Source: a virus. From it: a DNA stretch of 35,314 nucleotides. The stretch covers positions 1-35,314 of IMG/VR virus record IMGVR_UViG_3300012206_000013, one strand, 5' to 3'. The notes under the pieces were generated by a model that saw only the letters and a program-made list of their open reading frames with translations, was not told where the DNA came from and made no database searches. Below, in pieces: positions 535-30,493 of the stretch (position 1 is the stretch's first letter; each line of letters starts with the position of its first letter). A program made the position numbers and the translations under genes.

Positions 535-611
535 GAGTTAGTTATATACCTTGCTACTAACTCTCTCTAGTGCTAACTAGCCTTAGTCTTTTGCTAAGCC
601 CCCCTCCCCCC
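535..611. repeat. Three tandem hairpins and a C-tract
   Basis: Three adjacent inverted repeats are visible: GAGTTAGT/ACTAACTC (535-542 with 556-563, 8 bp, 13-base loop), CTAGT/ACTAG (567-571 with 576-580) and CTTAG/CTAAG (582-586 with 594-598). A run of C broken by one T follows at 599-611. There is no T-run after the hairpins, so it is not a standard rightward terminator. Its function is unknown; a structured RNA, a protein-binding array or an origin/packaging feature are all possible. Confidence 0.4.
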
Positions 612-869
612 ATCTAAAATTTATAAATAAAGAAAGTTTTGTAGTTATTTATAAGGGGATATAAGTAAGGGAAATACAATAGTAAGTAGTGGTAACGCTG
701 TGTGGATAGAGAGGGTGGCCTATTGATAGGATGCCGTATATGGGGAGATCCTATAGGATGGTATCCTTTAGTTGGAATAATATAAAATCTTGTTCAGTTT
801 GCAAGCTTGTTCAGACTTCAAATAAGTTGATTGCTGCTATGCACAATTTATTGATAACTTAACACAATA

Positions 870-885
870 AGTAAGTGCTTACTTC
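870..885. promoter_or_regulatory. Candidate operator, left copy of AGTAAGTRCTTACTTC
   Basis: The sequence AGTAAGTGCTTACTTC contains inverted AAGTAAG/CTTACTT arms (869-884) around a 2-base centre. A near-identical copy lies at 2145-2160. This copy ends 17 bases before the FNR-type dyad core and lies at about -81 to -66 from the inferred start of the rightward promoter, so it could be an operator for a dimeric regulator. No regulator gene is identified in the window. Confidence 0.4.
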
Positions 886-896
886 AGGTATATTTC

Positions 897-922
897 AATT
901 TCTTGATCTAGATCAAGGAATT
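897..922. promoter_or_regulatory. FNR/ANR/FixK-type box in a 26-base dyad
   Basis: The core TTGATCTAGATCAA (903-916) matches the FNR-family consensus TTGAT-N4-ATCAA exactly. The dyad extends to CTTGATCTAGATCAAG (902-917) without a mismatch and to 897-922 with only one mismatch (901/918). CRP/FNR-superfamily activators (FNR, ANR, DNR, FixK, FnrL) bind this consensus as dimers. The centre lies between 909 and 910, exactly 41.5 bases upstream of the start site implied by the TATAAC hexamer at 939-944, which is the class II activator geometry. Binding is inferred; a phage-encoded regulator using the same dyad is possible. Confidence 0.6.
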
Positions 923-951
923 CTATATCTATCTGTACTATAACCAAAGGT
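903..951 (+). promoter_or_regulatory. Candidate class II FNR-dependent promoter
   Basis: The -10 hexamer TATAAC (939-944) matches five of six consensus bases. The FNR-type dyad occupies the place of the -35 box, centred at -41.5 if transcription starts at about 951. No separate good -35 hexamer is seen, as expected for an activator-dependent promoter. It faces the 250-aa gene whose ATG lies about 140 bases downstream. Confidence 0.55.
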
Positions 952-1092
952 AGCACTGATAAGAGTCTCAGATACGTGGGAACACCCACAAGGCGCGACG
1001 GTGCGAGCAAGTCGGACGATACCGGGATAGTTACCGGCTCTGAACGTTCGATCAGTTCTTTTTCTTAACTCTCCCTGAAAGGGGAATTCCAA
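951..1092 (+). promoter_or_regulatory. Structured 5' leader of the 250-aa gene
   Basis: The inferred untranslated leader is about 140 bases and clearly richer in GC than the late genes. It contains the hairpin GTGGG-AACA-CCCAC (976-989) and a CCGG/CCGG stem (1022-1025 with 1034-1037). Short CTGA/TCAG pairing (1040-1043 with 1052-1055) precedes a T-rich run at 1056-1064, which could act as a weak pause or attenuator. A purine-rich ribosome site (GAAAGGGGA, 1077-1085) ends it. I recognise no known riboswitch. Confidence 0.35.
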
Positions 1093-1845
1093 ATGGAAAC
1101 GTTTGACCAGTCTGTAGTTGATTCTGTAAAGTCTGCACTTCCACAGGTTCCTACTCTCGCAAGTGCAGTAACTGAGAGTCTGGACTTTACGAAGTTCAGT
1201 TCCGAGAGACAACTGTCATTTGTTGTTGGCTATAATCCGAAAGTTTCGGAGATGCAGGGATACCGTCATGCAGTTGTCCGGTATCGCATTACTGGAACTA
1301 ACAAGGTTGAAAAGCCGGCGAAAATGGCAACAGTTCCTCAAGTTACCTTGCCTGATTCTGAATACCTGATGCCAAAGGAAGCAGCCCAGGTGTTAGTGGG
1401 GATTCTCGAAGATCAACAAGACGCAATGATTCGAGACATGATCGAGAGTGGAGCTGTTACGATCAAGTGGGACGAGATCACACTTGAGAAAACACTTTCC
1501 TCTCTGACTGCGACTCGGGTTAGTAACAGACTCACAAAGGAAATGATCGAGAACTGGGCGGCTATTGCTATCCGTAGTTTCACAGATGCAAGAGCAATTC
1601 AGATAGCAGAGCAAAAAGGCTTTGCTGCTGATGAGGTGCGAGTAGGAGCACAGAAAGCAGGTACATTCAATGCTTATTGTTTCAATCTCGCAAAGCTTGC
1701 GGCCGCAGTTCCTAATGTCGGGCAGGAAACTGCAACAGCGTTGCAGAACTTTATGAGTGCAAGCAAGCTCGACGATGACTTGGCGAAAGTTCTTAATAAG
1801 AAACTTCACGCTATTCTGAATCCAGCGGCAGTTGGTGATCTGTGA
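1093..1845 (+). CDS. Unrecognised 250-aa protein, probably early
   Basis: The start is well supported by GAAAGGGGA about 8 bases upstream of the ATG. I do not recognise the family. The protein is soluble and mixed alpha/beta. Residues 35-85 look beta-rich with the segment VVGYNPKVSEMQGYRHAVVRYR. Residues 90-250 look mostly helical, with an acidic stretch around residues 103-120 (VGILEDQQDAMIRDMIESGA) and an Ala-rich C-terminus. There is no signal peptide or membrane span. Base composition and codon use are richer in G and C than the structural genes. It lies downstream of the FNR-type promoter and 61 bases before a 52-aa membrane peptide, followed by a strong terminator, so it is probably expressed separately from the late operon, perhaps early. 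No function is assigned. Confidence 0.85.
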   Translation: METFDQSVVDSVKSALPQVPTLASAVTESLDFTKFSSERQLSFVVGYNPKVSEMQGYRHAVVRYRITGTNKVEKPAKMATVPQVTLPDSEYLMPKEAAQVLVGILEDQQDAMIRDMIESGAVTIKWDEITLEKTLSSLTATRVSNRLTKEMIENWAAIAIRSFTDARAIQIAEQKGFAADEVRVGAQKAGTFNAYCFNLAKLAAAVPNVGQETATALQNFMSASKLDDDLAKVLNKKLHAILNPAAVGDL

Positions 1846-1906
1846 GCGGCGCACTTTGGGGGGCAATCGCCAGTAGTAGCAAGTAACGAAAGGAAAGGAA
1901 AGTCCC

Positions 1907-2065
1907 ATGAGTTACTATCCTGAGTGGGAACACGAGAAGGATGCTCGTATCACGGCTGAGGTGCGACGCATGATGCTTGGATGGACTAAGCTATTCATCC
2001 TTGCAAGTGTGTTGCTCTTCGGATTCTGGTTCCTAGCAATACTGGTAATGAATCTCGGAACCTGA
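1907..2065 (+). CDS. 52-aa single-pass membrane peptide
   Basis: A short ORF starts at an ATG preceded by the strong ribosome site AAAGGAAAGGAAAG. Residues 1-27 are charged (MSYYPEWEHEKDAR...). Residues 28-49 form one hydrophobic span (KLFILASVLLFGFWFLAILV), followed by a short NLGT tail. Positive residues cluster before the span (R20, R21, K28), so the N-terminus is probably cytoplasmic. It follows the 250-aa gene and ends just before the terminator hairpin, so the two form one transcription unit. Small inner-membrane peptides in phage early regions often act on the host membrane or on superinfection, but nothing here identifies a specific role. Confidence 0.7.
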   Translation: MSYYPEWEHEKDARITAEVRRMMLGWTKLFILASVLLFGFWFLAILVMNLGT

Positions 2066-2072
2066 AATATTA

Positions 2073-2132
2073 GAGAGAGTATCTTTGCAAGCTGTATATC
2101 CATACAGTTCGCTTAGATACTCTCTTATTTTT
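2073..2132 (+). terminator. Long-hairpin rho-independent terminator
   Basis: AGAGAGTATCT (2074-2084) pairs with AGATACTCTCT (2115-2125). Inside it, CTGTAT (2092-2097) pairs with ATACAG (2102-2107) around the loop ATCC, and 2087-2088 pair with 2111-2112. The result is an almost continuous hairpin with two small internal mismatches. A T-rich run, TTATTTTT, follows. It sits just after the 52-aa gene stop and closes the early-looking unit. The unusual length could also give a stable 3' end for a small RNA. Confidence 0.8.
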
Positions 2133-2144
2133 ACCTATTCAGAG

Positions 2145-2160
2145 AGTAAGTACTTACTTC
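2145..2160. promoter_or_regulatory. Candidate operator, right copy of AGTAAGTRCTTACTTC
   Basis: AGTAAGTACTTACT (2145-2158) is a perfect 14-base palindrome. With the following TC it matches the copy at 870-885 at 15 of 16 positions. The two copies flank the 250-aa/52-aa unit. This one lies between that unit's terminator and the late promoter. Confidence 0.4.
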
Positions 2161-2326
2161 GCGGCGCTCCTTCGTAGTTACCATCGTACTTCGTAATTAA
2201 ATGCACGATAACATCTCCCGAGTTTTAAATGGGGGAGGGTAGTTAGACCTTTTAGTGCTACGATTAAACCTTTTCCTAAGTTCCTCTTAAAAATTCCTAA
2301 AGTTTTATGCTTCCGCAATGCTCGCA

Positions 2327-2354
2327 TTTCACAATCTGAAGTTTTCACAATCTG
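2327..2354 (+). repeat. TTTCACAATCTG direct repeat upstream of the late promoter
   Basis: Two exact 12-base copies (2327-2338 and 2343-2354) have a 16-base period. They end 15 bases before the -35 hexamer at 2370. Their position suits an activator or host-factor binding site, but no protein is identified. Confidence 0.35.
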
Positions 2355-2369
2355 GAGGGAATTACTCTC

Positions 2370-2398
2370 TTGAATGTTTCTCTATGAAGCGATATACT
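2370..2398 (+). promoter_or_regulatory. Sigma70-type promoter of the late operon
   Basis: TTGAAT (2370-2375) and TATACT (2393-2398) are separated by exactly 17 bases. They match the -35 at four of six positions and the -10 at five of six. Transcription should start near 2405, about 50 bases before the small terminase ATG. No other promoter of this quality is seen before the following 24 kb of rightward genes. Confidence 0.6.
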
Positions 2399-2455
2399 TG
2401 TAGCATGATAGCAAGAGGAGCAAGTGAGAGGTAGCCATTGCCGGAATTTTAACTT

Positions 2456-3094
2456 ATGGAAAATACACAACTTTCCTCAAATAGGGAAATTACAAAGCCC
2501 CGAAAGGAATATATTGGGATTGCAGCGAAACTCTTGAAATTTCTCGGGAGTGGTTGTACACAAGTGCAAGCAGCAAATGCTTGTGGTGTTTCAGAAGGAC
2601 TTGTTTCTCAACTTTGTGCAGAAGAAAGTTTCCAAGAACAGATTGCTGAGGTGCTTTCAAGGAATATTGAAGTTGCATCTCAAATTGATGAGAACTATGT
2701 GGAAGTTGAGAAAATTCTCTCGAAAAGACTTCGAGATGTTATTGGTTATATGACCAACGCAGATCAAATAGCAAGAATTCTCAAAACAGTTGCAAATATC
2801 CCAAGAAAGACTCAACCAAGAGTTCCTCTTAACTTAGAAACAGTTAGCGGAGCAATTGCACCAGTAACTCTTGCGATTCCAATAGTTGCAAGAAATGTAT
2901 TTGTTATTTCTCCAAACTCAGAAGTTGTTAAACTTGATGATAAGGAACTTGTTACTCTAAACTCATCTTCTATGGAATCTCTATTACGACAAAAACGTGA
3001 AAGAGTTACTATAGAACAATCCAAACCAGTAAAATTTGTAGAACCCGTAAATGGAAAACCATATCAAAGTTCAGATGAATATTCAGACCTCTGA
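2456..3094 (+). CDS. Putative terminase small subunit (HTH DNA-binding)
   Basis: The 212-aa protein probably recognises phage DNA for packaging and loads the large subunit. The N-terminal third contains a helix-turn-helix-like segment at residues 22-60 (AAKLLKFLGSGCTQVQAANACGVSEGLVSQLC), typical of small terminase subunits. A second helical region follows at 70-120 (SQIDENYVEVEKILSKRLRDVI), suited to oligomerisation. The C-terminal 80 residues are polar and low in helix. Its position as first gene of the late operon, two genes before the large terminase, supports the call. The ribosome site is weak. A generic transcriptional regulator is the main alternative, but the location argues for TerS. 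Confidence 0.65.
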   Translation: MENTQLSSNREITKPRKEYIGIAAKLLKFLGSGCTQVQAANACGVSEGLVSQLCAEESFQEQIAEVLSRNIEVASQIDENYVEVEKILSKRLRDVIGYMTNADQIARILKTVANIPRKTQPRVPLNLETVSGAIAPVTLAIPIVARNVFVISPNSEVVKLDDKELVTLNSSSMESLLRQKRERVTIEQSKPVKFVEPVNGKPYQSSDEYSDL

Positions 3095-3245
3095 AAAAAT
3101 GGCTGAAGTCCATCGGAGATTGCAAGAAGAAGAAAATCAGAAAGCTAGAGCATTGCTTGCTACCGCAATGTCTCATCTGGAGGCATTGCGCGTTATGCAA
3201 AGTAGTATTTCAAAGAAGATGAATGGAGTTAATGTCAAGAGATAA
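3075..3245 (+). CDS. Small helical protein, unknown
   Basis: The protein is 56 aa if it starts at 3075. An in-frame ATG at 3051 would give 64 aa, and one at 3099, just after the TerS stop, 48 aa. No start has a clear ribosome site, so translation is probably coupled to the preceding gene. The sequence is one long charged helix (EVHRRLQEEENQKARALLATAM), likely a coiled coil, with a basic tail. It lies between the terminase genes and overlaps the following gene by 23 bases. It may assist packaging, but it matches no family I know. Confidence 0.6.
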   Translation: MNIQTSEKMAEVHRRLQEEENQKARALLATAMSHLEALRVMQSSISKKMNGVNVKR

Positions 3246-3603
3246 TCTTCCTATTAAAGATCTTTCAAGGCAAGTTCAAGGAAGATTAGTCCCAAATATT
3301 TGGGAACCAATTTCTTGGATTGTAAACAGAATTTGGTATTCAGATCAGTTCGGTGCATTTAAATACTATCGAGGATATACTTCAGAGAATATTCATGGAA
3401 TGCTTTTTGTATGTCCTGGTTGTGGAGGGGTAAGTTGCCTTCCATTTATAAGCGATAATCCTAAACATGATAAATGGATTCCAGGAGGAACTATTTTGAA
3501 GCCACATCTTCGTCCAAGTATATTATCTGCTCCCGCAAAAGGTGGCTGTGGATGGCATGGATTTCTTAATCATGGTTATTTTGAATTAAGTCCTAGAGAA
3601 TAA
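3223..3603 (+). CDS. Zinc-binding protein resembling DUF6527
   Basis: The 126-aa protein shows a CPGCG motif (residues 64-68) after a GMLFVCPGC strand. It then has W80-PGGT, a KPHLRPSIL segment (residues 92-100) and a second CGWHGFLNHGYFE segment near residues 108-121. This order (metal-binding CxxC, W, the P-x-x-x-PSI motif, then C-x-H and NG/HG) is what I recall for the DUF6527 family of small phage proteins. Function is unknown for the family; a zinc-stabilised fold is inferred. An alternative start at 3232 has a GGAG close upstream. Immediate adjacency to the large terminase (stop at 3603, next ATG at 3604) suggests co-translation. Confidence 0.6.
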   Translation: MELMSRDNLPIKDLSRQVQGRLVPNIWEPISWIVNRIWYSDQFGAFKYYRGYTSENIHGMLFVCPGCGGVSCLPFISDNPKHDKWIPGGTILKPHLRPSILSAPAKGGCGWHGFLNHGYFELSPRE

Positions 3604-5112: not shown

Positions 5113-7083
5113 ATGGCACAGCCAAGTACTGGAAATGTACTAAGAATTTCTGAGGAATCTCAAAATAAGCTTACTACATATGTAAAGGCTGCTGCTACTA
5201 TTCGAGATGAGGGTTGGCAACTTCGGAATAGACTTGAGAATATTGATCTTGCATATATGCGGGAAAGAGATTTTACTGAAGAGCAAAGAAAAGCTGAAAA
5301 TGCAAATAAGGCTGGAGATCTTACAAAACTCCAGAATATGCAAGTTCCATTAATTGAAGAATCCGCAGAAAATACTGTTGGGTTCCTTACAAATGTATTT
5401 GCTGCTGATTATCCAATGTTCAAATTTGCAAGTGATCCAAAGAACGAAGATCTTGCATTGATGTGGAATACGCTTGTAGGTGAGGATCAGATACATTATG
5501 GATGGGCTGGAGAGTTTAATAAATCTTTCAGAATGGGAGAGAAATATAATTTCGCTCCTATTGAAGTTGATTGGAAGAAAGAAATTCTTTATAAACCAGT
5601 AAATGGTGCCGGTACTAATGGCACAGCACTTGAACAGACTATTTGGGAAGGGAATTGCATCCGAGCTCTTGATCCATACAATACTATTTATGATCCAAGA
5701 GTTCCAATTCACAAAGTTCATGAACGTGGAGAATTTGCTGGTTATATTGATCTAGCAACAAGAATTGAACTTAAACTTTTTTTAACAAGTCTTGGAGAAT
5801 CAAGACTTAAGAATGATGTTAAAGCATTTGAATCTCCTGGATGGGAAGTATCATACTATACTCCACACCTTAATCGTCAAGTTATTCTTAAGAATAAGAA
5901 TTGGATGGATGGAAGTTTTAATTGGACAAATTGGGCATTGGGCCTTGCACAAGATCATATTGCTTATCAAAATACTTATACAGTTATTACATTGTATTGT
6001 CGCTTGATGCCATTTGAGTTTGGTATTAGTGCTCCGCGAGATCAAACACCAGATATTTGGAAGTTAATAGTTGTAAATGGCACTCTTGTTTATGCACAAC
6101 CACTTCCAAATGCACATAATTATCTTCCGATTATTATAGGACAAGCAAAAATAGATGGACTTGACCACCAAACGAAATCTCCTTCAGAATCTCAACTTCC
6201 ATTTCAGGAAATGGTTTCTGCTTTATGGGCTGCAAAGCTTAATTCTGCTCGTAGACGTACTACAGATCGTATGCTGTATAATCCATTACTTGTTGATCCA
6301 GATCACATCAATTCCCCTAATCCATCTGCGAAAATTCCGATCCGTCCTACTGCATATGGAAGAAAACTTGAAGAAGCTATATATGTGATTCCATTTAATG
6401 ATGAGAACTCACAATTCTTTTTAACAGAAGCAAATGGAGTTGCTGAATGGGCAATGCGAGCAAATGGACAAAATCGTCCGATGCTTGGACAGTTTCAAAA
6501 AGGAAATAAACTTCAGGATGAGTGGCAACAAACAATGGCAAATGGTTCTAACCGTGAGAGAACAAAAGCTCTTATGTGGGAGTCATATTGTGTGCAACCA
6601 ATTAAAGTTATTTTGAAGAGTAATTATCTTCAAATGACTCCAAAAGGAACTAGGTATAATAGAGCTGAAGCAACACTTGTAAATATAGATCCAACACAAC
6701 TGCGGAAGTCTGAAGCTGAGTTTGTAGTTGGAGATGGACTTCTTCCAATTCAAAGACTTGTGCATGGCGAGAATATGCAACAAGCTTTTCAAACTCTTGT
6801 AGGAGTTCCTGCAATTGGTGATGGATATAATCTTGCTCCAATGTTTTCATATATGAATAAACTTCAAGGAATAGAAGGACTTGATCAATTTGAAAAAGAT
6901 TCTGAAACAATAAAATATGAGCAAGCATTAAAAGCATGGCAAAATGCAGCAGCACTTCTTGCAAAGAATGCAACTTATGGGGAACTTAAACCTGAACAAA
7001 TGCAACAGATATTAGGCCCAATGCCACAACCTCCAGCTCCTCCTAAACAACTAGGACAACCAAATGTTGGTACGACCAGATAG
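5113..7083 (+). CDS. Portal (head-to-tail connector) protein
   Basis: The 656-aa protein should form the dodecameric portal ring at the capsid vertex. It follows the large terminase directly. A good ribosome site (AAGGA) lies ahead of the ATG. The length, the N-terminal helical RDEGWQLRNRLENIDLAYMRERDFT segment, the middle region with LDPYNTIYDPRVP (about residues 191-203), the SARRRTTDRMLYNPLL segment (about residues 376-391) and the NRERTKALMWESYCVQPIKVILKSNYLQ helices late in the protein fit podovirus-type portals. The C-terminus is Ala/Gln/Pro-rich (QPPAPPKQLGQP). It overlaps the next gene by 20 bases. I rate the portal call high from position and length; the exact family was not checked. 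Confidence 0.85.
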   Translation: MAQPSTGNVLRISEESQNKLTTYVKAAATIRDEGWQLRNRLENIDLAYMRERDFTEEQRKAENANKAGDLTKLQNMQVPLIEESAENTVGFLTNVFAADYPMFKFASDPKNEDLALMWNTLVGEDQIHYGWAGEFNKSFRMGEKYNFAPIEVDWKKEILYKPVNGAGTNGTALEQTIWEGNCIRALDPYNTIYDPRVPIHKVHERGEFAGYIDLATRIELKLFLTSLGESRLKNDVKAFESPGWEVSYYTPHLNRQVILKNKNWMDGSFNWTNWALGLAQDHIAYQNTYTVITLYCRLMPFEFGISAPRDQTPDIWKLIVVNGTLVYAQPLPNAHNYLPIIIGQAKIDGLDHQTKSPSESQLPFQEMVSALWAAKLNSARRRTTDRMLYNPLLVDPDHINSPNPSAKIPIRPTAYGRKLEEAIYVIPFNDENSQFFLTEANGVAEWAMRANGQNRPMLGQFQKGNKLQDEWQQTMANGSNRERTKALMWESYCVQPIKVILKSNYLQMTPKGTRYNRAEATLVNIDPTQLRKSEAEFVVGDGLLPIQRLVHGENMQQAFQTLVGVPAIGDGYNLAPMFSYMNKLQGIEGLDQFEKDSETIKYEQALKAWQNAAALLAKNATYGELKPEQMQQILGPMPQPPAPPKQLGQPNVGTTR

Positions 7084-7426
7084 TATTCTCCAAGAGTATC
7101 TATTTTCTGAAGAAGAAAAAATAGCTGCACGAATTTTAAATCCTCTTCAGATTGCATGGCTTCATAATAAATATGCACAAAGATTTAAAGAAAAAGCAAC
7201 TCAGATAGTTCCTGAAGCTACTGAACTTGATAGGAGTTATCTTTTAAAACTTGGTGAGCTTGAAGGTATGCTCGCGCAATTACAAGAATTATTTACTGAA
7301 CATCAGGATGCTCAGAATGAACTTAAGAAATCTAAATCTCAAGATACTACATTTGTACCTGGTATTCTTGAGCAAGCTGCTATTGAAACTCGTGCTTCTG
7401 AACTCGTTCACAAAACACAGGAGTAA
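7064..7426 (+). CDS. Helical virion-assembly protein, unknown
   Basis: The 120-aa protein begins inside the portal gene (20-base overlap), so translation is probably coupled. It is helical and charged, with a likely coiled coil at residues 60-100 (LLKLGELEGMLAQLQELF...). There is no membrane segment. It lies between portal and scaffold, a slot where podoviruses often encode small assembly or accessory head proteins. I do not recognise a family. Confidence 0.7.
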   Translation: MLVRPDSILQEYLFSEEEKIAARILNPLQIAWLHNKYAQRFKEKATQIVPEATELDRSYLLKLGELEGMLAQLQELFTEHQDAQNELKKSKSQDTTFVPGILEQAAIETRASELVHKTQE

Positions 7427-26452: not shown

Positions 26453-27753
26453 ATTCGTATATCCTCTTCTTTAGATTTCATTTCAATATATTCAGGAAGT
26501 GAAAAAACATTACTATGTACAAAATCCCATTTTGGAATAGCTCTTTTAATAATAACTCCTCCATTTTCAATACTATCAACTTTCCCCGCTGCCCTTAATC
26601 CAATCAATAGATCTGCAAGTTGTTTCATACTCTCAAGATCACGATTTACTTGTGGCCAGATCTCTCTTGCTGGATCAAGTGGCTTTTCAGCTTTTTCAAG
26701 GAGTTTAAGGATTTTTTCGGTAACATCGCTATTTCTAGCTTTACCAAATTCTCCGAGCGCCTTAGGCATGAAGTACTCAGTATAGTGAAGTATTGAGTTG
26801 GCGTAAATGACAATTCCAAGATCAATACTTTTTTGTTGCCTCGCAGCCGCACAAGCAAGGCACAATTTAAGGAGGTGAGTATGTCTTCGAGAGGAATAGC
26901 TTTTAAATCTAACATCATCTAGATCTTTCCAGGATTGATAAATATCATCAAGTGCAATAACTGCTTGTGGCTTTATCTCAAATTGTCCCCGCATTTCCAT
27001 TCGTATTTTCATTAGTAAAGAAATGAGGTGAGCCGTAAATTCCGGAATAGGAGGAGGAGGAAAAGATATACGACGACCGCTGGGATCACTATATACCATA
27101 ATAAGTCTGCTGAAGTAACCTTGCCCGATGACTTCGGGAGGGAAAGCTATACTAATGCCGACACCAGTATTACCAGCAAGAATAGATATAGTGGGTTCAG
27201 GAATACGGACGGAACGCCCATTCTTAATACGATTCTCATAGAGTCCTTCCCAATCCCACAATGCAGTTAGAAGATCAATAAACTCAACATTACTATGACC
27301 AAGAAAAGAATTAAACTCACCACTAGTAATGAGACACTCCGCGGGTTCGCTGCTCTTCTCAATTCCAAATAATTCTCGCATTGTTGGATTTTTCTTTTCA
27401 TTCCTTCGAACATCAAGTCTTTCCTCTTCAGAATTGTGAGCATTGTCCATTCCTTCTTCTAGGTCAATTAGAAACTTCTCTTTAGTAGTTTTATCTGCAC
27501 TTATGGTCTTGTAACCAGCTCCAACTAGAAGTCTTTTAACTCCACGAATTGCAGTATCTTTTCGTGTACCACTTTCCCCTACGAGCATTACATAAGGATT
27601 TGCATATATCTTATTATGTCCATGTATAACCCAAGCATTTCTACCAAGTAAAGCTCCTATGCCTGTAATAGCACACCAACGATGATATATTGTTGGAGGT
27701 TCTGTACCTTTCTGATAGTCTAGGTACAGATCAAGAAAGTTTTCATTGGGCAC
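26449..27753 (-). CDS. P-loop ATPase, putative replicative helicase/primase-type (DUF3987-like)
   Basis: The 434-aa protein starts at GTG 27753, inside the end of the polymerase fragment. The segment YHRWCAITGIGALLGRNAWV (residues 23-42), then a P-loop GESGTRKDT (59-67) after an ANPYVMLVG strand, a Walker B-like strand AECLITSGEFNSFL (138-151) with E146, a sensor-like ISILAGNTG (189-197) and QGYFSRLIMVYSD (211-223) match the DUF3987/YfjI-like phage helicase layout as I recall it. The Walker A is unusual: Arg precedes the Lys and Asp follows where Ser or Thr normally coordinates Mg. The C-terminal 100 residues resemble a winged-helix region. It probably works with the adjacent polymerase at the fork. 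Confidence 0.7.
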   Translation of the reverse strand: MPNENFLDLYLDYQKGTEPPTIYHRWCAITGIGALLGRNAWVIHGHNKIYANPYVMLVGESGTRKDTAIRGVKRLLVGAGYKTISADKTTKEKFLIDLEEGMDNAHNSEEERLDVRRNEKKNPTMRELFGIEKSSEPAECLITSGEFNSFLGHSNVEFIDLLTALWDWEGLYENRIKNGRSVRIPEPTISILAGNTGVGISIAFPPEVIGQGYFSRLIMVYSDPSGRRISFPPPPIPEFTAHLISLLMKIRMEMRGQFEIKPQAVIALDDIYQSWKDLDDVRFKSYSSRRHTHLLKLCLACAAARQQKSIDLGIVIYANSILHYTEYFMPKALGEFGKARNSDVTEKILKLLEKAEKPLDPAREIWPQVNRDLESMKQLADLLIGLRAAGKVDSIENGGVIIKRAIPKWDFVHSNVFSLPEYIEMKSKEEDIRI

Positions 27754-28561
27754 TTTGTGGAATCCATGTTGTCATTTCACCCCAGTTGTGGCCGACTTTA
27801 GCTTTAACTGGGATAACCATTGTGCGAGTTTTCCCTTTGCAATCAGTAACTTGCGTTGGACGAATACAAAGTATCCTTGCTGCTTCAATAAGATATTCCT
27901 TGCCAATTCGTATTTGTGAGAATATAGAATCATGACCTTGAGCTTTGAGTCTAAAGTCTTTAGGATTCTGGATTTGAATTTTCCAGAAGATGTCTTTAAG
28001 TGCTTCATTGATAATAGCAACACTAAGGTTCTGTGGTGGATGGGCCACAAGAGCATTGAGATCAAGTTTTGATTTCTCTGGATTACCAAAGCAATAGCGT
28101 GTCCATCCCAGTGGTGAAACAAGTTTGCTGGTAGCTCGAACGGTATCTTTAATTGATTGATACCAAATACTTCTAACATCCGGATATGCTTTGTCATATA
28201 CATCTAGAAGATACTCACAAACTCTTTGGCGATTCCACCATTTTGGCAGTCCCAGAAGTTGCTTTGCTTTATCAACATTTTCATAACCCATAGTAATGAG
28301 GAGTACATACCATCCCATATTATAATTTGCACCGTGGTTAATACGCTTAGCAAGCTGACGAATATCATAATTAAGAACCTCTCCAGTTGGAGATATTATT
28401 TCATTATATGAGATTCCAAAAAATCTTTCAGCATTTATCCCGTGCAAGTCCTTTGAAGATTCTACTGCTGAAATGAGATTCTCATCTCCACTTAGGTAAG
28501 CAGTACATCTGCTTTCAGACTGTTCGTTATCTAATTCACACAGAATGAATGAGTTTTCCAC
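27743..28561 (-). CDS. Family A DNA polymerase, C-terminal half (palm and fingers)
   Basis: The 272-aa fragment starts at GTG 28561 with AAAAGG upstream. It contains motif A as ELDNEQSESR (D11, E16, R18; canonical D-Y-S-Q-I-E-L-R), the O-helix motif B RQLAKRINHGANYNMG (residues 68-83; R68, K72, Y80, G83) and motif C HDS (210-212; canonical HDE). It therefore holds both catalytic aspartates but no exonuclease or thumb. The missing N-terminal part is encoded upstream at 29027-30493, separated by two small zinc-protein genes. The 3' end overlaps the helicase gene by 11 bases. The two halves probably associate into one enzyme; a broken gene is the alternative, but all motifs are intact and both frames are open. 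Confidence 0.88.
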   Translation of the reverse strand: MENSFILCELDNEQSESRCTAYLSGDENLISAVESSKDLHGINAERFFGISYNEIISPTGEVLNYDIRQLAKRINHGANYNMGWYVLLITMGYENVDKAKQLLGLPKWWNRQRVCEYLLDVYDKAYPDVRSIWYQSIKDTVRATSKLVSPLGWTRYCFGNPEKSKLDLNALVAHPPQNLSVAIINEALKDIFWKIQIQNPKDFRLKAQGHDSIFSQIRIGKEYLIEAARILCIRPTQVTDCKGKTRTMVIPVKAKVGHNWGEMTTWIPQSAQ

Positions 28562-28784
28562 GCTTTAACCTTTTCTTATTACGATTCCTCCAAAATTGTA
28601 CTGTACGAACGTCACATAGCTTGCAATTCGCATGGAGCCTTCCATTAGGATAAACGTAGAATGAAGATAATGGTTTTTCAATTCTACAATTGGGACAAAC
28701 TTTTACTATTTTTTTTGGATGCAGCTTTTGTTCTTCAGGAATACGAAGAATTTCTTGAACAAAGAAACTTATTCCATTATTCAT
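28536..28784 (-). CDS. Zinc module like the N-terminus of an HNH/EndoVII-type endonuclease
   Basis: The 82-aa protein has a four-Cys zinc site: CPNC (C30, C33) and CKLC (C54, C57). Between them is the spacing and signature IEKPLSSFYVYPNGRLHAN typical of the pattern C-x-x-C-x-x-x-K-P-L-x-x-F-x...C-K-x-C that begins many phage HNH and recombination-endonuclease-VII-like proteins. The C-terminus is very basic (RNRNKKRLKRGK), suited to DNA binding. No catalytic HNH/DHH triad follows, so it looks truncated or stand-alone. It lies between the two polymerase halves, overlapping the C-terminal half by 26 bases and the 87-aa gene by 8. A homing-endonuclease remnant is the favoured inference. Confidence 0.7.
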   Translation of the reverse strand: MNNGISFFVQEILRIPEEQKLHPKKIVKVCPNCRIEKPLSSFYVYPNGRLHANCKLCDVRTVQFWRNRNKKRLKRGKLIHSV

Positions 28785-29040
28785 ATTGAGTATAAAGTTT
28801 TATAAATTCTTGCGCTTCTTGTGCAGCATCTAAATATTCTTTTGAAGGATTTTTATCTATTTCCTGTCCTGAGCGATATGCTTTCCAAATTTTAGTTCTT
28901 ATATTTATTGGAAGTATAAACCAATGTTTTGAACATCCCCAGAAGGTCGGAGGTACTTGTTTATTACATCCGGGCCAATGACACTTATGTTCTTTAGTTT
29001 GAGGTTGAGATTTTACATAATCAACTTTAGTCTGGAACAT
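28777..29040 (-). CDS. Small zinc-binding phage protein between polymerase halves
   Basis: The 87-aa protein contains HKCHWPGCNKQVPPTFWGCSKHW (read at residues 18-40) with C20, H21, C25, C36 and H39 able to bind zinc. An ILPINIRTKIWKAY helix and a GQEIDKNPSKEYLDAAQEAQEFI tail follow. Small proteins with this C-x-W-P-G-C ... W-G-C-x-x-H-W pattern are familiar from many phages, with unknown function. Its ATG overlaps the end of the polymerase N-terminal half by 14 bases, and it overlaps the next gene by 8 bases. It therefore sits inside the interrupted polymerase locus. Confidence 0.75.
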   Translation of the reverse strand: MFQTKVDYVKSQPQTKEHKCHWPGCNKQVPPTFWGCSKHWFILPINIRTKIWKAYRSGQEIDKNPSKEYLDAAQEAQEFIKLYTQYE

Positions 29041-30493
29041 ACATTCCCTTTATTGCTTCAGTTTGATTCTGGAAGTTAGCTCCCGTCCAGTTATATCCTT
29101 CACTTGAACTCAGTCGTCCTGTATCCGTACCATCTGGATTCATTGAATAATACATTCTTCCGTAATGAAGAAGATATGTCTTCTTTTTTGTTGGCTTTAC
29201 TGAAACTGAGAAATCTTTTGGTTTCAGGTATCGAGATATAAGAGCACCAGTTTCCCGGAGTTTAAGTATCTCTGTAGCAAATCGTGCATTAAGTGGATGT
29301 CTAATTGCGAACAATCGTAAAGCTGCCTCATCAGCGTTTGGTATGTCTGAGCTTCCATAAAAATGCACAAGTTTTGACACTTGTGCTGGTGAGTTGCCAC
29401 TGAAATCTTCACCGAACCAATGTTGTAGACGCTTTCTTGACGAATTGAACTCTGTAATATATTGCACAATAAGTCTAGATCTTGTATCTTCATTTACTTT
29501 AACTCCTTCAAGATTCATATAAAGACAAGCTGGCCATAGTGGAAACTTTAGGAGATAATTATTCCATGCCCATTGAGGCATTTCTTTACAGAGTCCCAGG
29601 AAGGATACAAGTGTAGCCCAACCATCTCGTGCATTGTACTCAAAGATTCTTCCAGTTTCCTTTGCCAAGTCCTTCCAATAGAAAATGTTATGAACCAAGA
29701 AAGCTCCAATGAAAGCCAAGTTTTTGGGCAATTCTGAATACCAAGAATGGAACATAGACTGTGTATCGAAAAAATATCCCCAACCCGGAGATGAGTAACT
29801 GATACAGTGTGCATTGTCATATAATCCATTCTGAAAGATTTTTGGAACTTTAAGAAGAAGGAATTTCCTCATCCAAATTACCCAATACATTTGTTCTTCA
29901 GAAGGAGCCTCAAGTATTGGTAATACTATTGTATGAATATTCCCATCAAGCCATAAACCTGTAAATGCTATGCATCGTATAGCAGTCTCATATTCCCCAT
30001 TTGATACATTTTCAAATGAAGAAGTTTCAATATCACTTGCAATAAGAATCGCTTGAGAAAAGAGTTGGTACCACTTTTCGATTGTTTCAAGTTTTGTGAG
30101 TTCCCAGCTAAACTCTGGAGTTCTAGGCCAGTCGCTTGGTCGTACCAACTTGCTAAGAAATCTCTTAGCAAGGAATTTCCCATACGGAACACTATATAAT
30201 TGTCGCAAAGGATTAAGGAACAGATATGTGATTCCTTCCCGCTCAAATAAAGAGCCGGCCCAATTATCGAGTGACTGATGCCTCTGACTTCCAATGACGA
30301 GATTAAGAACGATAGAAGATGTGGAGATGATATTTCTAATACCCTTAGATTCTGCATATAATTGAATCTCCGCGGCTGTATCAGGATTTTTATCTATTAC
30401 ATAAGTATGACGTCCATGAAGAAGTGACTTCAGGGTTGTGAGATATGGAATATCATCTGGAATTACCATTAGAAGAATTGGTGAGGAATCCAT
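29027..30493 (-). CDS. Family A DNA polymerase, N-terminal half (exonuclease and thumb)
   Basis: The 488-aa fragment carries a DnaQ-like 3'-5' exonuclease: ASDIETSSF (ExoI, D154 and E156), FQNGLYDNAHC (ExoII, N222 and D226) and EYNARDGWA (ExoIII, Y286 and D290). The thumb and start of the fingers follow, ending with YYSMNPDGTDTGRLSSSEG and NFQNQTEAIKGMYVPD. That end aligns with the Pol I stretch running from TGRLSS to IRQAF-APED, immediately before motif A. Motif A resumes in the C-terminal half at 28561, so almost nothing of the domain is missing. The stop codon at 29027 overlaps the 87-aa gene start. The fragment alone could proofread but not polymerise. Confidence 0.88.
   Translation of the reverse strand: MDSSPILLMVIPDDIPYLTTLKSLLHGRHTYVIDKNPDTAAEIQLYAESKGIRNIISTSSIVLNLVIGSQRHQSLDNWAGSLFEREGITYLFLNPLRQLYSVPYGKFLAKRFLSKLVRPSDWPRTPEFSWELTKLETIEKWYQLFSQAILIASDIETSSFENVSNGEYETAIRCIAFTGLWLDGNIHTIVLPILEAPSEEQMYWVIWMRKFLLLKVPKIFQNGLYDNAHCISYSSPGWGYFFDTQSMFHSWYSELPKNLAFIGAFLVHNIFYWKDLAKETGRIFEYNARDGWATLVSFLGLCKEMPQWAWNNYLLKFPLWPACLYMNLEGVKVNEDTRSRLIVQYITEFNSSRKRLQHWFGEDFSGNSPAQVSKLVHFYGSSDIPNADEAALRLFAIRHPLNARFATEILKLRETGALISRYLKPKDFSVSVKPTKKKTYLLHYGRMYYSMNPDGTDTGRLSSSEGYNWTGANFQNQTEAIKGMYVPD

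Follow-up and report, generated by a model that had tools for sequence, protein, structure and literature searches.

A candidate class II promoter for a host FNR-family regulator ahead of the first rightward gene of a podovirus

The question raised by this locus is whether a phage transcription unit could be placed under an oxygen- or redox-responsive regulator of its host. The window, defined here as the whole 35,314-nucleotide stretch that was analyzed, is a 35.3 kb virus record with 37.6% GC (46–49% GC in the ORF250 unit described below). Its TerL, portal, MCP, polA, and primase genes bear out the initial annotation of the DNA as phage. TerL (~31–33% identity) and portal (26–29%) align over most of their length with those of PaP2-type phages, EBPR podovirus 3, Tiera, and P5. 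The same kin are recovered by TerL, portal, capsid, DNA polymerase, and primase together (PaP2/119X, EBPR podovirus 3, Polaromonas phage Tiera, and Aeromonas phage P5, at ~26–33% protein identity). By these protein similarities, the window is a podovirus related to PaP2/119X and Tiera. The layout is that of PaP2/119X-related podoviruses, in which early genes point leftward and virion genes point rightward, and the box lies in the region between the leftward early genes and the rightward genes. Judged against relatives of 43–46 kb, roughly 8–10 kb of early leftward region is absent from the window. A tRNA search made for host assignment found none, and window positions 600–3600 have no DNA homology to sequenced phages.

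The box is an exact TTGAT-N4-ATCAA, TTGATCTAGATCAA, as had been claimed, and a scan of all 35,314 bases returned it as the sole zero-mismatch copy. With just one box, the window holds no regulon. The 26-base dyad AATTTCTTGATCTAGATCAAGGAATT that surrounds the box was also described correctly, with 12 of 13 pairs matched and one mismatch. It is the top-scoring dyad of the window (an equal score was reached in 1 of 20 dinucleotide shuffles), and its 26 bases compare with the 14 needed by FNR. The TATAAC hexamer is separated from the box by 22 bases. The −35 position for this hexamer reads AGGAAT, a poor match of 2 out of 6, which counts for a class II reading because class II promoters have a poor −35. 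The letters thus combine an exact box, a −10 at a gap of 22, and a weak −35 in the class II FNR arrangement, with a transcription start expected near 951. The class II spacing of TATAAC stands as first described; the dyad center at "exactly" −41.5 does not. The base at 951 is T; a start at the closest purine on either side, G950 or A952, would place the center at −40.5 or −42.5, so that −41.5 is an assumption within ±1. Feature coordinates are listed in Table 1.

Table 1. Features of the locus and FNR-type boxes of two further phages. Positions are those of the window unless another genome is named.
Feature	Position	Strand	Remark
AGTAAGTGCTTACT dyad, first copy	870–883		centre 33 bases upstream of the FNR-type dyad; also at L019:7586
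26-base dyad AATTTCTTGATCTAGATCAAGGAATT	897–922		centre 909.5, one mismatch
FNR/ANR-type box (FF site) TTGATCTAGATCAA	903–916		exact sequence match
TATAAC −10 hexamer	939–944	+	presumed start near 950–952
Presumed 5' leader	951–1092	+	51% GC; folding modestly above shuffles, z −1.5 to −1.6
ORF250, first rightward gene, conserved phage protein	1093–1845	+	homologues in L016, L019, L036; weak in L026/L037/L038
52-codon ORF, one likely membrane span	1907–2065	+	read by eye from sequence
Intrinsic terminator-like hairpin GAGAGTATC...GATACTCTC, then TTATTTTT; unit end	2075–2124	+	sequence
AGTAAGTACTTACT dyad, second copy	2145–2158		same place: AGTGAGCACTCACT in G002, AGTAAGTACTCACT in L019
Boxes of G008	5154, 6495, 14999, 41092, 43318	one strand	loci L057, L099, L162–L164
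Boxes of G009	26132, 27791, 29801		loci L043, L166

The expectation by chance was estimated from 2000 dinucleotide shuffles of the whole window and 20,000 of the intergenic region 458–1092. An exact box arose in 349 of the 2000 whole-window shuffles (17%), and a box with a −10 of at least 5 out of 6 at 21–23 bases in 22 (1.1%). Within the intergenic region, which was picked after the fact, the exact box arose in 23 of 20,000 shuffles (0.12%) and the box with a spaced −10 in 1 (0.005%). The claim that chance would rarely give such a match in 35 kb is thus too strong for the box alone, and it holds for the box together with its spacing and intergenic position.

The gene downstream, ORF250, is a real and conserved one, as had been supposed. 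Homologues are present at the same locus in L016 (48% identity) and L019 (46%); L036 has a cut copy. Weak relatives were found in L026, L037, and L038, and are leftward in the latter two. ORF250 has no match in Pfam, PHROG, or PDB, and its AlphaFold model is of low confidence (pLDDT 66.7, pTM 0.41) with no useful fold match. Hairpins resembling the one that closes the unit are found 3' of ORF250 in L019 and 5' of terS in G002; terS of the window starts at 2456, downstream of the terminator-like hairpin. No Rfam family reached its gathering threshold in the leader region. A Flavo-1 RNA hit over the dyad (23.7 bits, E 0.05, against a gathering score of 42) was taken as chance.

Relatives were sought via TerL, portal, TerS, and ORF250, and only L016, L019, L026, and the cut L036 carry ORF250 beside the region. 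Among GTDB genomes, TerL led to two phage contigs, both diverged (L037 and L038). G001 (33.8 kb) is collinear with the window at ~70% DNA identity and ends at window position ~2550, and G002 ends near 2030; both stop before the box region, so the comparison of the box covers diverged relatives. An exact FNR-type box is absent near ORF250 in L016, L019, and L026, and is found nowhere in Tiera, PaP2, or P5. No class II combination occurs outside genes in G001, G004 (the L019 genome), Tiera, EBPR3, PaP2, or P5. In Tiera the counterpart gene is preceded by a plain TTGACA-N17-TACAAT. The site is thus not conserved beside the intact gene in L016 and L019, the two relatives that span the region; by the initial annotation's own criterion this counts against its reading, although both relatives are diverged. 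Because these relatives have ORF250 without the box, the box is not ancestral, and its acquisition seems to fall within the lineage of this phage.

L016 and L019 have a motif of another kind at both of their divergent promoters, the sigma-54-like TGGCAYN6TGC (GG-N10-GC), at 6733(−)/7440(+) in L016 and 7011(−)/7716(+) in L019, 705–707 bases apart. These motifs were set aside, since nothing in the window corresponds to them and the leftward pair can also be read as TTGCGC-N17-TATACT.

An IMG/VR scan for the FF site followed by TATAA at 21–23 bases returned at least 119 stretches. Counting these as 119 promoters was rejected, because about half represent a single coding motif and about half belong to one marine T4-like intergenic family. 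Approximately 100 marine contigs share the box letters, ~50 in coding sequence and ~50 after a stop codon. The T4-like family (L047, L050, L066, L068, and ~45 others) has a stop codon, TTGATCTAGATCAA, a T-run, and TATAA(A/T), and is likely a terminator hairpin joined to a T4-type late promoter. With the same letters in other settings in these contigs, the string alone proves nothing.

Among the stretches listed, the look of a promoter set was found only in G008 and G009 (and L125, a near-duplicate). G008 (IMGVR_UViG_3300035499_000745) is a T4-like phage fragment, 48.7 kb long, that encodes T4-like baseplate proteins. It has five exact boxes, all TTGATCYRGATCAA and on one strand, each 21–22 bases from TATAAT. 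TTTC precedes four of the five, as in the window, and the −35 matches are 2–3 out of 6 in all. TTGACA is present at other G008 promoters, and CATTGA lies near the start site of the boxed ones. G009 (IMGVR_UViG_3300014914_000021) is a 32.3 kb phage fragment with 28% GC, and all three of its boxes have a −10 (TATAAT, TATAGT, or TATACT) at 21–22 bases. Shuffles predict 0.013 class II combinations for G008 and 0.023 for G009, and an average of 0.16 exact boxes per G008 shuffle. Ten control palindromes, with one mismatch allowed, reached at most 2 and 3 in the two fragments, respectively. Both fragments were retrieved by the searched box, and their further boxes fall outside the search criterion. 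Box plus spacing, first proposed as a promoter arrangement for the window, is thus found again in unrelated phages, there in sets of several promoters. These sets are far above the shuffle expectation, which argues that phages do build promoters of the class II FNR type.

The box letters also occur between genes upstream of the anaerobic ribonucleotide reductase genes of Xanthomonas phage XbC2 (L170, record 72250) and Erwinia phage Kaldavass (L169, record 311309). At both sites TTGATCTAGATCAA is followed by a terminator-like hairpin, and there is no class II −10.

The closest laboratory counterpart is the FF-41.5 class II FNR reporter, whose FF site is TTGATCTAGATCAA letter for letter (PMC4505428), so the description of the site as the exact consensus was accurate. 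Like FF-41.5 and other class II FNR promoters (E. coli FNR, Pseudomonas ANR), the window promoter has the 14-base box, the −10 spacing, and no good −35 (PMC4505428). Unlike FF-41.5, it is a predicted promoter in a phage, its −10 is TATAAC, and its dyad extends to 26 bases. A natural site identical to the box is found before ccoN of Shewanella (PMC3078092).

In a plasmid search with window positions 880–1100, the match of lowest E-value was a dyad ~48 bases before ccoG of Rhizobium bangladeshense. This site, ATTTCTTGATCTGGATCAAGGAATT, shares 24 of 25 bases with the window, flanks included, and at E 0.6 it is meaningful solely through its location. Among the classic targets of FnrN/FixK are the microaerobic cbb3 genes, and the window site resembles the rhizobial FnrN/FixK anaeroboxes (ccoG/fixG) to that extent. 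The ccoG site differs in fronting a host respiratory gene, and the phage's host is not known as a rhizobium.

Control of phage genes by a global regulator of the host has precedent in cyanophages. T4-like cyanophages carry 1–16 sites each for NtcA, a member of the CRP/FNR superfamily (PMC3037559), and binding of PhoB has been demonstrated for promoters of cyanophage S-PM2d (PMC10976474). The proposed reading of the window would be of the same kind; it differs from the cyanophage cases in the FNR-type box, in a signal that would be oxygen or redox, and in being a podovirus with a single site. The latter study also warns that host-regulator boxes predicted without binding tests are unreliable (PMC10976474), and this applies to the window site. 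Prophages of Neisseria gonorrhoeae and Pseudomonas aeruginosa are induced anaerobically, with phage genes raised in the absence of oxygen; the accessible text of that source mentions no phage promoter with an FNR-type box (PMC3032703).

Candidate regulators were sought in the phage proteins. No CRP/FNR HTH domain (PF13545) was found in the window, G004, G008, G009, or G010. Pfam and PHROGs identified no HTH regulator or sigma factor in the window, whose early region is missing, or among 33 early proteins of L019 and L016. The lack of an HTH regulator in the scanned phage proteins points to a host protein. The early proteins do include an Acb2/Tad1-like hairpin protein (PF24729, E 2e-16; L039/L040, in the L019 genome), which may represent an anti-CBASS gene.

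A host regulator of the FNR family (FNR, ANR, FixK, or FnrN type) may use the dyad as a class II activator site, and we give this reading roughly even odds. It is based on the box, the dyad, the spacing, the poor −35, the conserved gene, the terminator-like hairpin, and the recurrence in unrelated phages. An FNR-family dimer bound at 903–916 would have its center ~41.5 bases before the start and would recruit host sigma-70 RNA polymerase to TATAAC almost without a −35. The ORF250 unit (1093–2065, to the hairpin) would then be transcribed more when host oxygen is low, or in another state that activates the regulator. The presence of such a regulator in the host, its binding, the start near 951, and the oxygen response are all inferred here. 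With a box at activating distance before its gene, the phage may read the oxygen state of its host.

The host FNR-family promoter is the best single explanation, held at about evens, and two others rival it about equally with one another; each of the two is rather improbable. In one, a non-FNR regulator would use the dyad as its operator, overlapping the −35 position and repressing or timing the ORF250 promoter; this regulator would be a host repressor or a phage protein encoded in the absent early region. The length of the dyad, which exceeds an FNR box, fits such an operator, as does the early leftward region of roughly 8–10 kb outside the window. The unit is also flanked by AGTAAGTNCTTACT dyads, whose partial conservation in L019 and G002 includes paired changes, and GACGAANNTTCGTC-like repeats occupy the same place in L016. 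Against it, Pfam/PHROGs recognized no HTH repressor or sigma factor among the window proteins and the 33 early L019 and L016 proteins, the core reproduces the FNR consensus exactly and its flanks match the Rhizobium ccoG site, and this core recurs at the same spacing in unrelated phages.

The other, to which we give the same low weight, is an ordinary weak promoter whose palindrome fits FNR by accident. The whole-window shuffle frequencies (17% for the box, 1.1% with the −10) allow for this, the box is not conserved in L016 or L019, and post-hoc choice matters because many features were inspected in the first annotation. The site is nevertheless intergenic, on the right strand, correctly spaced, with a poor −35 and a conserved gene, a combination that is rare (1 in 20,000 local shuffles), and the dyad is the best of the window. 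That the dyad is instead a nucleic-acid structure (a terminator, or a replication or packaging signal) is very improbable. The marine T4-like group does have TAA-TTGATCTAGATCAA-TTCTTTT, with a stop codon before and a T-run after, but the window dyad is followed by no T-run on either strand, and the nearest upstream ORF of at least 60 codons is more than 300 bases away.

A broader form of the host FNR-family explanation is more tentative, at somewhat under even odds. The window podovirus, G008, and G009 would have built class II FNR-type promoters independently, ceding a transcription unit or units to an oxygen/redox regulator of the host, with none self-encoded. If true, the infection programs of some phages would answer host anaerobiosis directly through the host's FNR-type sensor, much as cyanophages are controlled through NtcA and PhoB. 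Phage production would be linked to anoxic niches, and a simple DNA signature would serve for spotting oxygen-responsive phages.

The AGTAAGTNCTTACT dyads bracket the ORF250 unit in the window and likewise flank ORF250 in L019 (7586 and 8745). The AGTGAGCACTCACT copy before terS in G002 differs from AGTAAGTNCTTACT on both arms. Since the AGTAAGTGCTTACT dyad adjoins the FNR-type dyad, the region may be under a regulator of its own. A AGTAAGTNCTTACT dyad is also present at position 91 of L014, and three GACGAANNTTCGTC-like dyads lie at 7286–7380 of L016, upstream of its ORF250 promoter.

Elsewhere in the window, DNA polymerase A (27743–30493, minus strand) is split into ORFs of 488 and 272 aa, ~0.5 kb apart, with two small zinc-finger/HNH-like ORFs in the gap. 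The L019 DNA polymerase A is unsplit, at 772 aa. Just 5' of terS, conserved GTTAGACCTTTTT and AAAAATTTCTAAACTTTT-like stretches lie at 2246–2306. They recur at the same place in L016, L019, L037, L042, and L022, several contigs end nearby, and these stretches are possibly a packaging signal.
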